Source: Cellulophaga sp. RHA19 (GTDB taxonomy: Bacteria; Bacteroidota; Bacteroidia; Flavobacteriales; Flavobacteriaceae). From it: a stretch of 64,000 nt of DNA. Below the pieces are notes generated by a model. That model did not search any database. It had not been told where the DNA came from and saw only the letters and a program-made list of their open reading frames with translations. Below are positions 15,680-29,719 of the stretch, in pieces (the first letter of the stretch is position 1; the number at the start of each line of letters is the position of its first letter). The stretch covers positions 1,590,001 through 1,654,000 of the forward strand of contig NZ_PHUL01000001.1 in NCBI RefSeq assembly GCF_002813425.1, given 5' to 3'. Made by a program: the position numbers and the translations under genes.

Positions 15680-17158
15680 ATGGATAATTACGGCTGGCTA
15701 TCAATATTACCTCCAATAATTGCAATTGTACTAGCATTACGTACTAAACAAGTATACATAGCTTTGCTTTTTGGTATATGGTTTTCGTGGATTATCATAA
15801 ACGATTGGAACTTTTTAACAGGTACCTTAAGTGCTATAGAGGGTATGGTAAATGTATTTAAGTCAGAGGGCAATACAAGAACCATTATGTTTAGTGCCTT
15901 GGTGGGTGCTTTACTTTTATTTATACAATACTCTAAAGGTGTAGAAGGTTTTATCAATCAGCTTAACAAAGTAATTGCCTATTTTGAAAAAAAACAGAAA
16001 GGATACAGCAGAGTAATTGTACAATTGCTGGCATTATTAACTGGTATTTTATTGTTTGTAGAAACCAGTATAAGCTCTTTAACAGTTGGTACGTTGTACA
16101 GACCAGTTTTTGATAAGTTAAAAATACCAAGAGAAAAACTAGCGTACATAGCAGATTCTAGTTCTGCGCCATCATCTATACTAATTCCTTTTAATGCGTG
16201 GGGAGCTTTTATTATGGGCTTGTTGGTTACACAAGGATTAGAAAACCCGTTTGGCTTAATGCTGTCATCCATAGCATATAATTTTTATCCCATTTTGGCT
16301 ATTGCAATAGTAATAATTGTAATTGTGTCTAAAAAAGATATTGGTCCAATGGCCAAAGCAGAAAAAAGAACCCGAGAAACGGGTAAACTTTTAAACGACA
16401 ACTCTAAACCTATGTTGTCTAGTGAGGTTACTTCGTTAGCACCAAAAGAAGGTATTAAAGCAAAGGCATATAATATGATTATTCCTTTGGCAACAATGGT
16501 GTTTATGATGCCTATAAACTTGGTGTACACAGGTTGGGGTAATGTTACAGATGCAGTATCAACATCAGACCATATATTTAAAGCAATTGGCCAAGGATCT
16601 GGATCTTCTTCTGTATTATATGCAGTATTAACCGCTATTTTGGTGGCAATGGTATTGTACAGGTCTCAAAAAATAATGAAAACCAAAGAAATGATAGATT
16701 TGGTTTTAAAAGGTATTAGTGAGCTTATGCCACTAGCATTACTTATGTTATTAGCGTTTGCCATTGGCGATGCTTGTAACGAGTTGGGTACAGGTAAATT
16801 TGTAGCAGAATGGTCTAAAGACTGGTTGTCGCCAGAGTTTTTACCAGCCATAATTTTTGTAATTAGTTCTTTTATAGCATTTTCTACAGGTACATCTTGG
16901 GGAACATTTGCAATTATGATGGCTATAGCAATACCAATGGCAGAGGTACACCAGGCACCTATAACGCTTGTAATTGCAGCAACTTTAGGTGGTGGTATTT
17001 TTGGAGATCATTGCTCGCCTATATCAGACACCTCAATAATATCGTCAATGTCTTCTGCAAGTGACCATATAGATCACGTAAATACACAGTTGCCTTATGC
17101 CTTAATTGGTGGTATTGCAACCATTATATTATACTTAATTTTAGGGTTTGCATTGTAG
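15680..17158 (+). CDS. nhaC: NhaC-family Na+/H+ antiporter
   Basis: The 492-residue protein has about twelve membrane helices over its full length. The segments ETSISSLTVGTLYRPVFDKLKIPREKLAYIADSSSAPSSILIPFNAWGAFI (central discontinuous helix region) and FSTGTSWGTFAIMMAIAIP plus GGGIFGDHCSPISDTSIISSMSS near the C-terminus are signature stretches of the NhaC superfamily. These inner-membrane proteins exchange Na+ for H+ and support pH and salt balance; some relatives use amino acids or lactate/malate, so the substrate is not certain. It stands alone, diverging from the tRNA gene. Confidence 0.85.
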   Translation: MDNYGWLSILPPIIAIVLALRTKQVYIALLFGIWFSWIIINDWNFLTGTLSAIEGMVNVFKSEGNTRTIMFSALVGALLLFIQYSKGVEGFINQLNKVIAYFEKKQKGYSRVIVQLLALLTGILLFVETSISSLTVGTLYRPVFDKLKIPREKLAYIADSSSAPSSILIPFNAWGAFIMGLLVTQGLENPFGLMLSSIAYNFYPILAIAIVIIVIVSKKDIGPMAKAEKRTRETGKLLNDNSKPMLSSEVTSLAPKEGIKAKAYNMIIPLATMVFMMPINLVYTGWGNVTDAVSTSDHIFKAIGQGSGSSSVLYAVLTAILVAMVLYRSQKIMKTKEMIDLVLKGISELMPLALLMLLAFAIGDACNELGTGKFVAEWSKDWLSPEFLPAIIFVISSFIAFSTGTSWGTFAIMMAIAIPMAEVHQAPITLVIAATLGGGIFGDHCSPISDTSIISSMSSASDHIDHVNTQLPYALIGGIATIILYLILGFAL

Positions 17159-21679: not shown

Positions 21680-22705
21680 TTATCCCTTAAAGGTAGATTC
21701 TCTAACAACTAAATTTGTTTTTACCTCTATGGTTTTGGTTTGCATAGTTTCTTTTGGGTTTAATATTTCGTGCAATAAATAATTAACAGCAGTTGCGCCA
21801 ATTTTACTTCCTGGTTGGTTTATGGTTGTTAAACTTGGAGATATTATAGTAGATTTAACAGAGTTACTAAAACCAACAACCGCAATTTCATTAGGAATAT
21901 TAATGTTTAAGGTTTTTAGGGTTTGTATAGCTCCAATTGCTGCATTGTCTGTAATGGCAAAAATAGCATCTGGTCTATTTTTCATACTAGCAATTTGTCT
22001 TGTTATTCTTTTTCCGCTTTCTAATGATACTCCTTCTGCGCTAAAAATTAAATCGTCATTAATTGGTAAGTTGTTACTAGTTAATGCACGTTTATAGCCA
22101 GCTAATCTTGTTCTTGAGTTATAAGAGTTTTCTGTTTCTTTTAAAATAGCAATTCTCTTTTTGCCTAAACCAATTAAATGCTCTACTGCATTAAAAGATG
22201 CTTCTTCATCATCTATTACAATTTGTGAGCAAGGTATTTTATCAGAAACTTTATCAAACAAAACAAGTGGTATACGTTCTAATATACTTAATATAGAGTC
22301 TACAGATTTTGTTTTTCTGGCTAAAGACATAAGTACGCCGTCTACTCCAAACTGTATCATAGTTTGCAGCATTTCAAACTGTTTCTCTTCGTTGTTTTTA
22401 GATTCAGATATAATTACTCTGTATCCTAAAGTTTCTGCTTGGGTTAAAATGCCTTTTAAAATAGTAGCAGTAAAGCTGTGACAAATGTTAGGAACAACAA
22501 CACCTAATGTATTTGTCTTTTTTGCTCTAAATCCTTTGGCAAAAAGATTGGGAATGTAGTTGAGCTCTTTTGCTAAATCTTTAACTTTTTTAATTGTAGC
22601 AGGACTAATATCAGGATGATTGTTTAAAGCTCTGGAAACTGTTGATACAGATACATTTAGTCTTTTTGATAGCTCTTTTAGCGTGATATTTACTTTTTTA
22701 GCCAT
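21680..22705 (-). CDS. LacI-family transcriptional regulator of the adjacent uptake operon
   Basis: The 341-residue protein has the LacI N-terminal helix-turn-helix (about 5-30: ITLKELSKRLNVSVSTVSRALNNHPDIS) with hinge helix, then a periplasmic-binding-protein-like sensor domain (LGVVVPNICHSFTATIL, GVDGVLMSLARKTKS, DAIFAITDNAAIGAIQ, INIPNEIAVVGFSNS). It is divergent from the TonB receptor-GH63-symporter-glycerate kinase operon, with three palindromes in the space between. It would sense an intermediate or the sugar itself and control that operon, by repression or, as often in Bacteroidota, activation; the ligand is inferred from context only. Confidence 0.9.
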   Translation of the reverse strand: MAKKVNITLKELSKRLNVSVSTVSRALNNHPDISPATIKKVKDLAKELNYIPNLFAKGFRAKKTNTLGVVVPNICHSFTATILKGILTQAETLGYRVIISESKNNEEKQFEMLQTMIQFGVDGVLMSLARKTKSVDSILSILERIPLVLFDKVSDKIPCSQIVIDDEEASFNAVEHLIGLGKKRIAILKETENSYNSRTRLAGYKRALTSNNLPINDDLIFSAEGVSLESGKRITRQIASMKNRPDAIFAITDNAAIGAIQTLKTLNINIPNEIAVVGFSNSVKSTIISPSLTTINQPGSKIGATAVNYLLHEILNPKETMQTKTIEVKTNLVVRESTFKG

Positions 22706-22750
22706 TTACTTTGGGGTTTGTAAGTTAATATACTCAAAAAAAAGTGTTTA

Positions 22751-22764
22751 TGCAATCGATTGCA
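22751..22764. promoter_or_regulatory. Candidate LacI operator 1
   Basis: TGCAATCGATTGCA is a perfect 14-base palindrome with the central CG common in LacI-family sites. Confidence 0.65.
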
Positions 22765-22774
22765 CAAACGTTTG
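22765..22774. promoter_or_regulatory. Candidate LacI operator 2
   Basis: CAAACGTTTG is a perfect 10-base palindrome with central CG, directly abutting operator 1. It resembles typical LacI/GalR family half sites (CAAACG). Confidence 0.55.
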
Positions 22775-22779
22775 CGTTA

Positions 22780-22795
22780 TTTTATTGCAATAAAA
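22780..22795. promoter_or_regulatory. Candidate regulatory palindrome 3
   Basis: TTTTATTGCAATAAAA is a perfect 16-base palindrome. It shares ATTGCA with operator 1 but lacks the central CG, so it may bind the same regulator weakly or another protein. Confidence 0.45.
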
Positions 22796-22892
22796 CTATT
22801 GATTTGTTGAGAATCACCTTATAAATTTACTTCACAATTGTACATTTTATAAATAACTGACAACAAACTTAAACTTATTAAAACTCAACAAA

Positions 22893-25487
22893 ATGAAAAA
22901 TTTAATTATTGCATTCGCATTAATTTTTAGCATTACAGGAGTGTTTGGACAAACAGATATCTCTGGTACGGTTAAAGATTCAGATGGAGTTCCGGTAGAT
23001 GGAGCTAATATTATTATAAAAGGAACAAGTGAAGGGACAACATCAGATTTTGATGGTAATTACACATTTAATACTAGTTTAAGTGGCTCGCAAATAATAA
23101 GAGTTACTTATATAGGGTATACTACAATAGAAAAAACTGTTAACTTATCTGGTTCTTCAGTTACATTAAATTTTGTTTTAAATGCAGACGGACAACAGTT
23201 AGATGAGGTTTTACTAACAGCAACATCAACCAGAAGGTCCCAAAAAGAAACACCTTTATCTGTAACCTCTTTGGGGGCAAAACAATTAGCAAAAGTAAAT
23301 ACAAGTAGCCAGGCAGACGTATTGCGTAGTGTGCCAGGTATTACCGCAGAAGGTGGTGGTGGTGAGGTAGCGTCTAACATTTTTGTAAGAGGTTTGCCTT
23401 CTGGTGGTCAATACCAGTTTAATCCATTACAAATAGATGGTATGCCAGTATTAAGCACATTTGGTTTAAACTCATCTGCTCATGATGTATATTTTAGGAA
23501 CGATATAGGCATAAAAAGTTTAGAATTTGTGCGTGGTGGTTCTTCAATTTTATACGGAGTTGGTTCTGTTGCGGGTATTATAAATTATACTAGTATTACA
23601 GGAACAGTTCAACAAAAAACAACATTAAGAACCGAGTTTGGTAGCAACTCTAGATACAAAGCAGATTTTGTTACTAGTGGTCCTTTAGGCGGAGAAGATT
23701 CTAAAACCTTTTACGCACTATCTGGATTTTATAGATATGATGAAGGGCCAATTATTACAGGTTTGCCAACAGAAGGTTTTCAGTTAAGAGGTAATATTAA
23801 GCACGTAACAGAAAAAGGTTCTATTACAATATCTGGTCAGTATATAGATGATCAGGTGCAATTTTTCTTGCCTTACCCATTAGAGGGTGGTTCTAGAGAA
23901 AGACCAAATGGAAATAACGGAGATGAAATTTTTACACTGCAAACTGCAGATGCACAAGACATATCTTACAGAACTCCAGATGGTATATACACGTCTCCAA
24001 TACAAGACGGAGTATCTACAAAGGGGTCTTACATTATGGCAGATTTTAAACATAGGTTTGATGATAGTTTTAAGTTAGATGCAAAATTACGTTACTCTAA
24101 ATACGCACATCAGTTTAACTTATTTTTAGATGGTAGCGGTGTAGGCGGAGCAAAAGTTGTAGAAACACAACAAGAGTATTTAGATGCAAGAGGCTTAGCA
24201 AGCGGAGATTTTACATACTTAAACGGGCAACCTTTAGATGCAGATGCATTACTTTTTGAAAACAGAATTTTAGACAGAGATAGACCGCTACGTGAGTTAA
24301 TGGCAGACATTAAATTAACAAAGTCTATAGATATACACAATATTACTTTTGGTACATTCTTTTCTAGATCAGAAGCAGGAGATTTTAATGTTATTACTAG
24401 GTATTTAGGAGAATACAACAACAGGCCAAGTTTGGTTAATGTATCAGATTACAGTGTAAACGGTGTTACAAACAGAGGTTTAGCATATACAAATCGTAAT
24501 ATTTCTAGTAATAAAATAGCTGCATTTATAGCAGATGAAATTAAACTAGATCGTTGGAACTTAGATTTTGGTATTAGATATGAGAGAGCTTCTGGTGATA
24601 TTGAAAACGAAGGTACAGCATCTTACCTTGTAGATAATACAGGTATTGCTGGTTTAGATAATGTAACTTGGGGAGATGGTAGCTATACTAGAGGTCATGT
24701 ATACGCAGATGATTTTGCTGTTGCTTTAGCAGCTTTGTATAAAGTAAATGATAACTTAAGTGTATATGGTAACTTTTCTAGAGGATACTTTTTTCCAGAG
24801 TTAAGAGGTACAAAGTTTGATGCTTTAGGAAATCCTTCATCATACGACACAGAGAAAATTCTTCAAGGAGAATTAGGTGTTAAATATGGCGTTCCTGGTT
24901 TTTCTGCAACTGCAGCGTTATATAATGTTAGTTTAAAAGACAGGCGCTCTGTAAGTTTTGTTAATGCTCCAGGAGGTGGTTTTTTAGAAGAAGTAGATAA
25001 GCAAGACTCTAATACATATGGTTTTGAAGGTACTTGGAACTGGAGTTTTGCAGATAACTTTGCTTTTACAGGTTCTTTTACATACCAAGATCATGAGATT
25101 ACAAAGTCAGAGAACGACCCAACTATAGAGGGTAACGAGTTAAGAAGACAACCAAATGTTATTAGTGCTTTGGGCCTTAGTTATGATGATGCTAAGCTAG
25201 ATGCTAGTTTTGATTTTAACTACACAGGTAAAAAGTTTACTAATGAAACAAATACAATAGAATTAGACGCAATAGGTATTTCTAATCTTAATTTAGGATA
25301 TACTTTTAGTTTAAGTGAAGAAGGAGAAACATTAAGAGTAGGTACGCAAGTATTTAATTTGTTTAATTCAGATGGCGTAACAGAAGGCTCACCAAGGTTA
25401 GGTAATAACCAAACAGATGAAGAGTTTTTTGTAGGTCGTCCAGTGTTGCCAACAAGAGTATTTTTAAACGCAACATTCAATTTCTAA
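22893..25487 (+). CDS. TonB-dependent outer-membrane receptor of the glycosylglycerate-type operon
   Basis: The 864-residue precursor has a signal peptide (1-19, ending VFGQ), a CarboxypepD_reg-like domain (about 21-100, ISGTVKDSDGVPVDGANIIIKGT), a plug domain (about 110-235, with QADVLRSVPGITAEG, FVRGLPSGG, VRGGSSILYGVGSVAGIINY) and a beta barrel ending in the aromatic residue of NATFNF. It lacks the SusC-specific segments and no SusD partner follows, so it is a classical stand-alone receptor suited to a small substrate. It is the first gene of the operon; a strong hairpin separates it from the hydrolase gene. Substrate assignment is inference from the neighbours. Confidence 0.9.
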   Translation: MKNLIIAFALIFSITGVFGQTDISGTVKDSDGVPVDGANIIIKGTSEGTTSDFDGNYTFNTSLSGSQIIRVTYIGYTTIEKTVNLSGSSVTLNFVLNADGQQLDEVLLTATSTRRSQKETPLSVTSLGAKQLAKVNTSSQADVLRSVPGITAEGGGGEVASNIFVRGLPSGGQYQFNPLQIDGMPVLSTFGLNSSAHDVYFRNDIGIKSLEFVRGGSSILYGVGSVAGIINYTSITGTVQQKTTLRTEFGSNSRYKADFVTSGPLGGEDSKTFYALSGFYRYDEGPIITGLPTEGFQLRGNIKHVTEKGSITISGQYIDDQVQFFLPYPLEGGSRERPNGNNGDEIFTLQTADAQDISYRTPDGIYTSPIQDGVSTKGSYIMADFKHRFDDSFKLDAKLRYSKYAHQFNLFLDGSGVGGAKVVETQQEYLDARGLASGDFTYLNGQPLDADALLFENRILDRDRPLRELMADIKLTKSIDIHNITFGTFFSRSEAGDFNVITRYLGEYNNRPSLVNVSDYSVNGVTNRGLAYTNRNISSNKIAAFIADEIKLDRWNLDFGIRYERASGDIENEGTASYLVDNTGIAGLDNVTWGDGSYTRGHVYADDFAVALAALYKVNDNLSVYGNFSRGYFFPELRGTKFDALGNPSSYDTEKILQGELGVKYGVPGFSATAALYNVSLKDRRSVSFVNAPGGGFLEEVDKQDSNTYGFEGTWNWSFADNFAFTGSFTYQDHEITKSENDPTIEGNELRRQPNVISALGLSYDDAKLDASFDFNYTGKKFTNETNTIELDAIGISNLNLGYTFSLSEEGETLRVGTQVFNLFNSDGVTEGSPRLGNNQTDEEFFVGRPVLPTRVFLNATFNF

Positions 25488-25520
25488 GTTAGTAGTTTTT
25501 TGTTTATAATTATTAAAAAC

Positions 25521-25549
25521 ACATTGGCGGCAGTCAGTGCCGCCAGTGT
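25521..25549 (+). promoter_or_regulatory. Intercistronic hairpin inside the operon
   Basis: An extended 12-bp stem (core TGGCGGCA/TGCCGCCA, perfect) closes a 5-base loop GTCAG. It is by far the most GC-rich spot in the surrounding spacer and lacks a strong T run, so it is more likely an mRNA-stabilising or processing element, or a partial terminator, than a full stop. Confidence 0.7.
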
Positions 25550-25569
25550 GTTTAATTCAACATTTTTTT

Positions 25570-26871
25570 ATGAAAGAGAGGTTAATATCACAAGCCATTA
25601 ATGTATTAGAGGAAAATTTTCAACCAGGAGGGTTTACAATTCCGTGTAAAGGATTGTATCCTTTTCAATGGAAATGGGATAGCGGTTTTATAGCCATTGG
25701 TCAGGCTTATTATGATGTGTCTAAAGCAAAGCAAGAAATTTCTACTTTGTTAGATGCGCAATGGGATAATGGTTTTATACCACACATTGTTTTTCATAAC
25801 GAGAGTGATACCTACTTTCCAGGAGCAGATGTGCACAGATCAGATTTAAGTCCTGTGTCATCTAAAAAGTACAAGTCAACAGGAATGACACAACCTCCTG
25901 TTACTGGTTTTGTGCTAGAAGAAATGTATAGAATAGCAAAAGACAAAGAAGATATGTTTGGCTATATAAAAAGTCAAATAGACAAGGTTTATGACAACCA
26001 TAAGTATTTTTATCAAAACAGAGATGTAAATGATGAAGGGTTGGTCTTTATTTACCACAATTGGGAATCTGGAACAGATAACTCTCCTATTTGGGATGAT
26101 ATTTGGAAAACAATGAACCCTCCAGATTATACTTTTGAACGTAGAGACACTACACACGTAGATGCATCACAAAGACCAAGTAAAAGAGAGTATGATCATT
26201 ATTTGTATATCATAGAAATAGCTAAAGAGCATAATTATAACGATGCTAAAATAGCAGAGTTATCTCCTTTTTTAGTAATAGACCCATTATTTAATGCTAT
26301 GTTAATAAAGTCTAATCAAGCATTAATTAACTTGTATACACTTATTGGTGATAATGATGATAAAATAGCACAACTTGTAAAATGGCAAGGAAAAAGTATA
26401 AAAGGCTTTAACAAAAAGTTGTGGGATAAAGATTTAGGTGCTTATGTACACTATGATTTAAGAAAGGATAAACCAATAAGTTTTGTAACATCATCATCTT
26501 TTTCTCCTTTGTTTGCAAACATACCAAGTAAAGAGAGAGCAGATATTTTGGTAAATACAATGATGACAAAATTTGGAGGAGAAGATAAGTACTTATGTGC
26601 TTCTTTTGATCCAGAAAGTGATCGTTTTGACCCTAAAAAATACTGGAGAGGTCCTGTTTGGATTAATATGAACTGGATTTTGTTCTACGGATTAAAAAAT
26701 TACGAGTACAATAATATTGCAGATCGCATAAAAGAAGATTCTATAGAGCTTATTGAAAAATTTGGCTTTTACGAGTATTTTAACTGTAAAAAAGGAACAG
26801 AGGATGCTGGTTATGGCGGAGATAATTTTTCATGGAGTGCAGCATTGCTTATAGATTTTTTAAATAATTAA
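25570..26871 (+). CDS. GH63-type glycoside hydrolase, probable mannosylglycerate/glucosylglycerate hydrolase
   Basis: A 433-residue protein without signal peptide, so cytoplasmic. ATG 25570 is chosen over a GTG at 25537 that lies within the hairpin. It has the (alpha/alpha)6-barrel pattern of GH63/GH37 enzymes, with QWKWDSGFIAIG (33-44), QWDNGFIPH (64-72), HNWESGTDNSP (163-173, Asp170 the likely catalytic acid), YWRGPVWINMNWIL and the C-terminal EYF...GGDNFSWSAAL (a Glu here, probably 402, the likely base). Size and motifs fit bacterial mannosylglycerate and glucosylglycerate hydrolases, which release hexose and glycerate. The glycerate kinase in the same operon supports this choice over trehalase or alpha-glucosidase. 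The specific sugar cannot be decided. Confidence 0.8.
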   Translation: MKERLISQAINVLEENFQPGGFTIPCKGLYPFQWKWDSGFIAIGQAYYDVSKAKQEISTLLDAQWDNGFIPHIVFHNESDTYFPGADVHRSDLSPVSSKKYKSTGMTQPPVTGFVLEEMYRIAKDKEDMFGYIKSQIDKVYDNHKYFYQNRDVNDEGLVFIYHNWESGTDNSPIWDDIWKTMNPPDYTFERRDTTHVDASQRPSKREYDHYLYIIEIAKEHNYNDAKIAELSPFLVIDPLFNAMLIKSNQALINLYTLIGDNDDKIAQLVKWQGKSIKGFNKKLWDKDLGAYVHYDLRKDKPISFVTSSSFSPLFANIPSKERADILVNTMMTKFGGEDKYLCASFDPESDRFDPKKYWRGPVWINMNWILFYGLKNYEYNNIADRIKEDSIELIEKFGFYEYFNCKKGTEDAGYGGDNFSWSAALLIDFLNN

Positions 26872-26883
26872 TTAAACCAGAGT

Positions 26884-28530
26884 ATGAACTATATAGACTA
26901 TGCAATTGTTGGGCTTTACCTTTTTGGGTTCTTGGCAATGGGCTATTTTTTTAAGGAAAATAAAGACTCTAAAGACTACTTTTTAGGAGGTAAAAGTCTT
27001 GGGTGGTTTCCTTTAAGCCTATCTACCATGGCAACACAATTGTCTGCTATTAGTTTTATTTCTGCACCAGCATTTGTTGGATTAAAATTAGGAGGTGGGA
27101 TGAAATGGCTAACGTTTGAGTTTGCCGTTCCATTAGCAATGATTTTTATAATGGTCATTATAGTTCCTCCTTTGTTTAGATCTGGAGTTGTTAGTATTTA
27201 TGAGTTTGTAGAAAGACGTTTTCATTCATCTACACGTATGCTTTTAAGCGTGGTTTTTTTAATAAGCAGAGCTTTAGCAACGGGAGTAATGGTATACACT
27301 ATTTCTATAATATTGCAAGCTGTTTTAGATATAGATTATGTGTATACAGTATTAATTATAAGTGTTATAACTATAATTTATTCTTGGCAAGGAGGTATGA
27401 AAGCCGTTGTTTGGGGAGATGCAATACAAATGATAATACTTTTTGTAGGCTTAATAATATGTCTTTTTTATGGTTGGTCTTTACTAGATAGTCATGGAGG
27501 TATAGGACAAGGTTTTGCTCCTGAAAGATTACAGGTAATAGACTTTAATTGGGGAATAGGAGAAGGCCAAGAATATGGTTTATGGCCAATGTTAATTGGT
27601 GGTTTCTTTTTATATGTTTCTTATTATGGTTGTGACCAAACACAAGCACAAAGATTGCTGTCTGCAAAAAATGAAAGTACCATACGCAAGTTGTTATTAG
27701 CAAACGGACTGTTGCGTTTTCCTGTTGTATTACTGTATTGTACTATAGGTTTGGTTGTAGGTACTTTGGTTATAAAAGCCCCCGATTTTTTAAATGATAT
27801 TGCTGTAATGACAGAAAAGTATTTTCCTGCAGAATATGCCGCTACTGGCGCTAAAGCAGATTTAATGATACCTATTTTTATTACCAAATATTTACCCCAC
27901 GGGTTAATTGGTCTGTTAATGGTAGGAATACTTTCTGCAGCAATGTCTACTTTAAGCTCAACAGTAAATTCACTATCTGCAGTTACAGTTGAAGATTTTT
28001 TTAATAGAGGAGGTAAAAAAATATCAACAAAAAAATACATGATGGTCTCTAAAATCTCAGTGGTTTTTTGGGGTCTTGTGTGTATGGCTAGCTCGTTTTT
28101 GTTTGGTGGCAGTAAAAGTGCAGTAATAGAAATTATAAATGCAATTGGTTCTGTTTTTTATGGACCAGTTTTAGTAACCTTTTTGCTAGCTATGTTTTCA
28201 AAAAAGGTAAACTATAAAGGTATAAATGCAGGTATTTTAATAGGTGTTTTGGTTAATCTTATTTTTTCTAAAACAATGCAAAATATTGTAGGCATAGATT
28301 TAGGAATACATATTTTTTGGATATGGTTAAACTTTACAGGTGTGCTATTAACTTTGGCTATTAGTTATTTAGTAAGTTATTTAACAGGTTGGCAAAAAGA
28401 CACTAGTAATTTATTGATAAATGTATTTCCTAAAAAATCAGATTTTTTAATAAAAGAAGTTTATATATTATTAGGCTTTTTTGTTGTTATACTTATTCTA
28501 AGTTTTCTAATTCCCCAAATATATAGTTAG
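26884..28530 (+). CDS. Sodium:solute symporter (SSS family)
   Basis: The 548-residue inner-membrane protein has about 13-14 helices and the SSS family landmarks: DSKDYFLGGKSLGWFPLSLSTMATQLSAISFISAP at the first helices, RTLATG-like SRALATGVMVYTIS, YYGCDQTQAQRLLSAKN and the late MVGILSAAMSTLSSTVNSLSAVTVEDFF, which carries sodium-site serines. It would bring the small glycoside from the periplasm into the cytoplasm with Na+. It begins 12 bases after the hydrolase gene and ends 1 base before glycerate kinase. Confidence 0.9.
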   Translation: MNYIDYAIVGLYLFGFLAMGYFFKENKDSKDYFLGGKSLGWFPLSLSTMATQLSAISFISAPAFVGLKLGGGMKWLTFEFAVPLAMIFIMVIIVPPLFRSGVVSIYEFVERRFHSSTRMLLSVVFLISRALATGVMVYTISIILQAVLDIDYVYTVLIISVITIIYSWQGGMKAVVWGDAIQMIILFVGLIICLFYGWSLLDSHGGIGQGFAPERLQVIDFNWGIGEGQEYGLWPMLIGGFFLYVSYYGCDQTQAQRLLSAKNESTIRKLLLANGLLRFPVVLLYCTIGLVVGTLVIKAPDFLNDIAVMTEKYFPAEYAATGAKADLMIPIFITKYLPHGLIGLLMVGILSAAMSTLSSTVNSLSAVTVEDFFNRGGKKISTKKYMMVSKISVVFWGLVCMASSFLFGGSKSAVIEIINAIGSVFYGPVLVTFLLAMFSKKVNYKGINAGILIGVLVNLIFSKTMQNIVGIDLGIHIFWIWLNFTGVLLTLAISYLVSYLTGWQKDTSNLLINVFPKKSDFLIKEVYILLGFFVVILILSFLIPQIYS

Positions 28531-28531
28531 C

Positions 28532-29719
28532 ATGAATTATTTAGTTATTCCAGATAAGTTTAAGGGCTCATTAACTGCTAATGAAGTAATACAATCAATT
28601 ACTAGTGGTTTACAAAGAGCGGACAAATCACCTTCTGTAAAGTCAATTTTAGCATCAGATGGTGGTGACGGTTTTTTAGACGCCGTTGCTTGTAAAATTA
28701 TGGTGCAAAAAGTATATGTAGATACTATAAATCCAATAGGAGATAAGCTAAGAACATATTACTTACTTAATAAAGACACTAAAACGGCTTACGTAGAGCT
28801 TGCTAAAGCATCTGGTTTAGAGTTGTTAAAAGCCAAAGAACGTAGTGCTAAAAAAACATCTACATTTGGTACAGGTCTTTTAATTAAAGATGCCATTAAA
28901 AAAGGCGCAACAAGTATTTATTTAGGTCTTGGCGGTAGCGCAACTAATGATGCTGGTATGGGATTGGCTGCGGCTTTAGGGTATTCTTTTTTTAATGAAG
29001 ACGGTATGGCATTAAACCCAATTGGAGAAAATTTGTCTAAAGTTTTTAAAATAGAGCGCAATGCTACGGTTACTATTTTAAATAGGATAAAATTTTATGC
29101 AGTTAATGATGTAGATAACCCTTTGTTTGGTGAAAATGGAGCTGCAAAAGTTTATGCAAAGCAAAAAGGAGCAACTGCAAAAGATATAGAGATTTTAGAT
29201 AAAGGACTAGAGTACTTTAGTTCTGTTATAAAACATTCTATGCTGTTAGATCATTCATTTTTGCCAGGAGCTGGTGCTGCTGGAGGAACAGCTTTTGGTT
29301 TAAAAACTTTTTTTAATGCCGAATTTATTAGCGGTGTAAAATTTTTACTAGAACTAACAGAGGTTCCAAAAATGCTAAAGACTAAAAAAATTGATTGTAT
29401 AATTACTGGTGAAGGTAAAATAGACAGTCAAACTAATAATGGAAAGCTAGTAAAAGGTGTTGTAGATTTAGCTAGGCATTATAATATTCCTGTAATTGCC
29501 ATTTGTGGTAAATTAGACGCAGATGAGGAACAGTTAAGTAAAATTGGTTTAAATGAAGCATTAGAAATTTACGATCCTAAAAAAGGAGTAGATTATAGCA
29601 TAAAAAATGCAGCTATGCTTGTGGAAGAAATTATATATCAGTTTTTTAAAAATGGTAGGCGTAAAGCACAAAAAAAAGTTAACGTAAGTAAAATTCTTTC
29701 AAAATTTAATATATTTTAA
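28532..29719 (+). CDS. Glycerate kinase (GlxK/GarK family)
   Basis: The 395-residue protein starts with the family signature PDKFKGSLTANEV, then SDGGDGFLDA, VELAKASGLELL, TFGTGLLIKDAI, GLGGSATNDAGMG (substrate/nucleotide loop), GAGAAGGTAFGL, and DCIITGEGKIDSQT. Enzymes of this family phosphorylate D-glycerate, usually to 2-phosphoglycerate, which enters lower glycolysis. The C-terminus carries a basic extension (NGRRKAQKKVNVSKIL) of unclear meaning. It starts 1 base after the symporter stop, so it is certainly cotranscribed. Its presence is the strongest clue to the substrate of the operon, since the upstream hydrolase would release glycerate. Confidence 0.93.
   Translation: MNYLVIPDKFKGSLTANEVIQSITSGLQRADKSPSVKSILASDGGDGFLDAVACKIMVQKVYVDTINPIGDKLRTYYLLNKDTKTAYVELAKASGLELLKAKERSAKKTSTFGTGLLIKDAIKKGATSIYLGLGGSATNDAGMGLAAALGYSFFNEDGMALNPIGENLSKVFKIERNATVTILNRIKFYAVNDVDNPLFGENGAAKVYAKQKGATAKDIEILDKGLEYFSSVIKHSMLLDHSFLPGAGAAGGTAFGLKTFFNAEFISGVKFLLELTEVPKMLKTKKIDCIITGEGKIDSQTNNGKLVKGVVDLARHYNIPVIAICGKLDADEEQLSKIGLNEALEIYDPKKGVDYSIKNAAMLVEEIIYQFFKNGRRKAQKKVNVSKILSKFNIF

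Follow-up and report, generated by a model that had tools for sequence, protein, structure and literature searches.

The window analysed here is a stretch of 64,000 nucleotides from Cellulophaga sp. RHA19, whose genome is a single contig of 3,934,755 bases. It contains a LacI-family regulator gene and, divergent from it, genes for a TonB-dependent receptor, a GH63 hydrolase, a sodium:solute symporter and a glycerate kinase. A sequence-only reading of this DNA had listed the same five genes, and open reading frames (ORFs) together with profile matches place all of them where it put them. In window coordinates the features are as follows.

21680..22705, minus strand: LacI-family regulator, divergent from the operon (PF00356 52 bits, PF13377 106 bits).
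22752..22763, no strand: palindrome GCAATCGATTGC, seen by direct reading, a candidate second regulator site.
22764..22775, no strand: probable LacI operator ACAAACGTTTGC, with a single mismatch to a perfect palindrome.
22893..25487, plus strand: TonB-dependent receptor with no SusD partner (PF00593 116 bits, PF07715 66 bits, PF13715 72 bits).
25517..25553, plus strand: intercistronic hairpin of 16 pairs in the receptor-hydrolase gap.
25570..26871, plus strand: GH63 MGH1-like hydrolase, predicted to be cytoplasmic and to act on mannosylglycerate/glucosylglycerate (profile, residues, tree, predicted structure).
26884..28530, plus strand: sodium:solute symporter, which presumably takes the uncleaved glycoside across the inner membrane (TIGR00813 213.7 bits, cut-off 184).
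28532..29719, plus strand: glycerate kinase of the GlxK/GarK type (TIGR00045 350.3 bits, cut-off 168.45).

The LacI and receptor starts lie 187 bases apart, and the interval holds the two abutting 12-base sites GCAATCGATTGC and ACAAACGTTTGC. The receptor-hydrolase gap is 82 bases (counting from ATG 25570), and the later gaps are 12 bases (hydrolase-symporter) and 1 base (symporter-kinase), as the sequence-only reading had it. Very probably the locus is an operon under regulation that scavenges alpha-hexosyl-D-glycerates, namely mannosylglycerate (digeneaside) and, probably, glucosylglycerate. That substrate class, proposed earlier, draws support from residue conservation, the tree, the predicted structure, accessory genes that point to one sugar or the other, and the linked kinase.

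The hydrolase ORF is listed from GTG 25537, and the relatives compared point to ATG 25570 as the start, giving a protein of 433 residues with the N-terminus MKERLISQ, in which inspection by eye reveals no apparent signal peptide, as had been claimed. It is 97% identical to a protein of Cellulophaga sp. RHA_52. The GH63 assignment holds: the mannosylglycerate hydrolase MGH1-like profile PF22422 matches over the whole domain with 304 bits (cut-off 27). The protein is about 41% identical to the Thermus thermophilus mannosylglycerate hydrolase (MgH; 4wva), the catalytic Asp and Glu are present (D170 and E402) and the substrate-contact residues Y30, W34, W36, D37, Y82, Q108, G168, R202, Y208, Y358 and W359 are kept. 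Both the tree and the predicted structure group it with characterized MgH rather than with glucosylglycerate hydrolase (GgH). The sequence-only reading had named kinship with trehalases or alpha-glucosidases as a danger to its proposal, and the Pfam trehalase profile PF01204 is indeed passed (61 bits over a low cut-off of 21), while relatives bear the database names trehalase or amylo-alpha-1,6-glucosidase. The best NCBIfam trehalase model, by contrast, gives 44.3 bits against a cut-off of 512, and the scores and predicted fold are far nearer to MgH/GgH (the hydrolase tree itself contained no trehalases); that the enzyme is a trehalase, or an alpha-glucosidase of another kind with a disaccharide as substrate, is thus hardly credible.

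The residue at GgH position 434 is Phe420 in this hydrolase and Gln in all 120 GgH-like matches, Gln434 being a mark of GgH inferred in this analysis rather than a published definition; among the distant loci 7 of 15 were usable for this comparison (five showed frame stops at the fixed coordinates used, L158 gave no sequence, and the rows of L157 and L159 were misaligned). The missing Gln434 speaks against glucosylglycerate from marine cyanobacteria as the main substrate, as does the glucosylglycerate hydrolase model NF047898, which yields 322.5 bits, below its equivalog cut-off of 550. Two loci with a gene resembling glucosylglycerate phosphorylase (GGaP), described below, favour that reading, but the RHA19 locus has no glucose-specific gene and a ManA-like gene is the commoner neighbour, and we consider it unlikely.

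Further indications of substrate come from related loci, of which the best 80 among 570 confirmed candidates from a scan of genome contigs were compared; being the best-scoring, they are biased to near relatives. A ManA-like (mannose-6-phosphate isomerase) gene lies immediately 3' of the kinase in 8/80 loci (L082, L094, L098, L104, L115, L118, L123, L126). These genes were located by BLAST with the L044 protein, which scores 157.6 bits with TIGR00218 (cut-off 116.2). At the same place L087 has a PF01050 cupin (40 bits, cut-off 23.6), which gives 31.1 bits with the bifunctional NCBIfam model, far below 373. In L037 and L137 (Lutibacter sp. B1) a GH13 gene is inserted between symporter and kinase. 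Its products are 42.0% and 43.6% identical, respectively, to Escherichia coli YcjM (annotated as glucosylglycerate phosphorylase) and share with it the motif TETN; among solved structures, glucosylglycerol and sucrose phosphorylases come nearest to them. The motif (T/S)ETN marks GGaP, of family GH13_18, as does a conserved Glu in loop A, according to the accessible part of PMC7178133. The GGaP-like gene occurs in 1/80 loci. The GGaP-like and mannose genes are taken to indicate that what is imported would be a glycosylglycerate, with the mannose and the glucose form both in use across the family.

Whether the operon serves red-algal digeneaside alone, with glucosylglycerate at most a side substrate, is the closest question. 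The Phe at position 434, the place of the enzyme in the tree apart from GgH, and the ManA-like genes and L087 cupin agree with such a restriction, and host genera such as Zobellia, Maribacter and Cellulophaga commonly occur in association with seaweeds. Set against it are the GGaP-like gene within the operon of L037 and L137, the finding that characterized MgHs cleave both glycosides with similar efficiency (PMC6608630, accessible part) and a digeneaside content that, in one red alga, remained low and unmoved by salinity (PMC8523428, accessible part). We regard the restriction as plausible but somewhat short of an even chance, and the broader use of alpha-hexosyl-D-glycerates is preferred.

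The gene order is widely conserved. Around the hydrolase, LacI is found in 71/80 loci, the receptor in 73, the symporter in 78 and the kinase in 76, neighbours being plain ORFs of at least 90 residues matched by BLAST to proteins of the RHA19 stretch; split ORFs lower some of these counts (in L072 the LacI gene was overlooked because the receptor there is split over two ORFs). The whole set stands together in 67/80 loci, which answers the call of the sequence-only reading for a check in relatives, and 6 of the 13 incomplete loci abut a contig end; the five-gene association is far above chance. The LacI homologues are 47-73% identical to that of RHA19. Zobellia, Maribacter, Winogradskyella, Algibacter, Aquimarina, Lutibacter, Polaribacter and Flavobacterium are represented. 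In sampled genomes, a set overlapping in species with the 80 loci, the hydrolase gene occurs in 31/199 of the family, 6/395 of the class and 19/395 of the phylum (RHA19 counted in each). The 30 other family members have the symporter in 30 cases, the kinase in 26, LacI in 18 and the receptor in 16, and a sister clade has a hydrolase-symporter-kinase block with neither LacI nor an adjacent receptor.

Several neighbours vary. In 6/30 loci of the sampled genomes a gene resembling MurQ (N-acetylmuramic acid 6-phosphate etherase) lies divergent to the sister-clade block (L054, L056, L057, L059, L060 and L061, called by profile scan in L061 and by BLAST in the remainder; in L058 it is three ORFs off). 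In Muricauda/Allomuricauda an S66 LD-carboxypeptidase-like gene occupies the symporter-kinase interval (L103:13557-14573, L134:13008-14030), with ORFs of matching size in L135 and L136; together with MurQ this makes two links to cell-wall recycling. A GNAT acetyltransferase-like gene stands between hydrolase and symporter in 20/80 loci (L064, L071 and L097 among them; the L039 copy was profile-scanned), and in Wenyingzhuangia heitensis the same interval holds a GH97 gene (L128:11269-13269). In RHA19 an outer-membrane beta-barrel gene (PF14905, 29809-32562) begins 89 bases past the kinase. Since a relative at the post-kinase place is confined, among the 80 loci, to Cellulophaga L062 and L063, operon membership is improbable and the gene probably lies outside. 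At 15680-17158 is a Na+/H+ antiporter family gene (PF03553) whose Tet(35) match is below cut-off (157 vs 750 bits).

The receptor scores 99.7 bits with the SusC model TIGR04056 (cut-off 368), its neighbours are LacI and the hydrolase with no SusD beside it, and no ORF of at least 90 residues lies between receptor and hydrolase in any of the 73 receptor-bearing loci; by model score and SusD neighbour, the locus does not qualify as a canonical SusCD polysaccharide utilisation locus. The receptor, lacking SusD as a lid, would carry the glycoside over the outer membrane and the symporter would move it intact over the inner membrane; the best solved relative of the symporter is the sodium/iodide cotransporter (143 bits), and its solved relatives do not reveal its substrate. 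In the cytoplasm the hydrolase would release hexose and D-glycerate by an inverting Asp/Glu mechanism. The kinase, whose GlxK-type score upholds the earlier assignment, would pass the glycerate into lower glycolysis, and enzymes from outside the locus would phosphorylate and isomerise the hexose: ManA and polyphosphate glucokinase, the latter the sole ROK match, are present in the same genome, and the Glk-type glucokinase PF02685 is absent from it (other hexokinase families were not searched). A hydrolase recycling the cell's own osmolyte, as the mycobacterial GgH is described to do in the accessible part of PMC6608630, would hardly share its operon with a receptor and a symporter. The genome also has no PF09488 synthase (one-step synthases, those for mannosylglycerate belonging to GT78, were not searched) and its best glucosyl-3-phosphoglycerate synthase match is 64.5 bits against a cut-off of 262. 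Such recycling is very improbable, and uptake of an external glycosylglycerate remains the preferred function.

The regulator site recurs across the divergent regions (72 loci plus RHA19, each taken with 60 bases of both flanking genes). Exact copies of CAAACGTTTG occur in 53/73 regions against 7/1443 random stretches of the same loci, and the reversed word in none; with at most one mismatch the counts are 68/73, 26/1443 and, for the reversed word, 12/73. LacI would repress the operon through this palindromic site, perhaps through a tandem pair, until an inducer arrives. A wider regulon was considered: with at most one mismatch GCAAACGTTTGC occurs at 4 places in the RHA19 genome (13 for the reversed control word), and as the three further places lie in or near genes with no evident connection, judged without scanning their products, we claim none. 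A promoter scan was dropped, having given 28 sites against a mean of 38.1 in shuffles.

A hairpin in the receptor-hydrolase gap is likewise conserved. Both z < -2 and a stem of at least 10 are found in 65/73 loci against 23/104 other same-strand gaps (shuffles preserved single-base composition only and the hydrolase start was placed from a conserved motif); other gap classes, which like all the controls contain true terminators, give 21/57 (convergent), 22/67 (LacI-divergent), 5/21 (hydrolase to next gene) and 2/6 (symporter-kinase). The stem sequence differs among Zobellia, Algibacter, Winogradskyella and Flavobacterium, and an alignment of 8 related hairpins shows 5/16 pairs with both sides changed in at least one sequence. 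A T-rich tail follows in 37/74. The element may act by partial termination or by protecting the receptor message, and would probably raise receptor abundance above that of the enzymes.

Receptors fall into two classes of identity to the RHA19 protein (42-51% and 61-91%) and symporters into three (51-55, 60-65 and 74-93%), and each receptor class co-occurs with all three symporter classes. The simplest reading, from identity classes rather than gene trees, is that parts may have been exchanged within a constant gene order. One might go further and see a modular family of glycosylglycerate-scavenging operons, in which a fixed order accommodates swapped receptor and symporter alleles and plug-in ManA or GGaP genes, one LacI cassette serves red-algal and cyanobacterial osmolytes, and the conserved but sequence-variable hairpin sets the receptor:enzyme ratio; this could as easily prove wrong as right.

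A number of points weigh against a scavenging operon for alpha-hexosyl-D-glycerates. As characterized MgHs cleave both glycosides about equally well, the relevant substrate cannot be read from the enzyme, and we know of no characterized enzyme within its Bacteroidota clade; the Gln434/Phe difference contrasts clades and may reflect history rather than function. Accessory sugar genes occur in a minority of loci and the RHA19 locus carries neither a ManA-like nor a GGaP-like gene. Where its glycerate comes from cannot be told from the kinase. So small a solute may have no need of a TonB receptor, and the receptor link is not universal, as the sister-clade block shows. The RHA19 operator is one base off the 12-base word, which has two exact matches elsewhere in the genome with no visible link.

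The sequence-only reading had suggested that the gene set was undescribed in Bacteroidota. As stated, this does not stand: digeneaside is named among further possible substrates of the polysaccharide utilisation loci of 53 North Sea Flavobacteriia (PMC6298971), and Maribacter dokdonensis is reported to have homologues of the Zobellia galactanivorans digeneaside degradation genes, after Barbeyron 2016 (PMC8072126); judging by the accessible parts of both papers, digeneaside has already been published as a predicted substrate in this family. In the literature searched, mostly open-access, we found no assay of the enzyme and no growth experiment from Bacteroidota, no relevant paper on mannosylglycerate with TonB and, within its accessible text, no mention of the operator, hairpin or phosphorylase insertion; the main text of PMC9296495 (Zobellia on fresh macroalgae) lacks digeneaside, mannosylglycerate, floridoside, GH63 and glycerate. 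Among 18 papers from 2014 onward in that literature that mention digeneaside, two deal, to judge by titles and accessible parts, with bacterial breakdown genes and one more with engineered production, so the sink for digeneaside appears little studied. To the published prediction the present analysis adds accessory-gene evidence for two sugars, the split at residue 434, an operator, a hairpin that is conserved and alleles in mosaic combination. The locus would offer marine Flavobacteriaceae, known mainly for polysaccharides, a testable route onto small charged solutes of algae and picocyanobacteria.

The E. coli mng pathway also imports and cleaves mannosylglycerate, but takes it up through a phosphotransferase system and splits it with a hydrolase that acts on the phosphorylated compound. 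The T. thermophilus MgH (EC 3.2.1.170, GH63) has the same fold, catalytic pair, glycerate site and Phe at 434, whereas the RHA19 enzyme belongs to a separate Bacteroidota clade and sits within an uptake operon. GGaP likewise cleaves a glycosylglycerate and is often encoded near a glycerate kinase (PMC7178133, accessible part); unlike that arrangement, the operons of RHA19 and of 79/80 loci have no such gene. The predicted digeneaside genes of Z. galactanivorans are of the same family and have the same proposed substrate: the published Zobellia and North Sea genes, whose accessible descriptions mention no operator, hairpin or accessory genes, would presumably correspond to the RHA19 set, and the loci of other Zobellia species (L066, L068 and L073) share its gene order.

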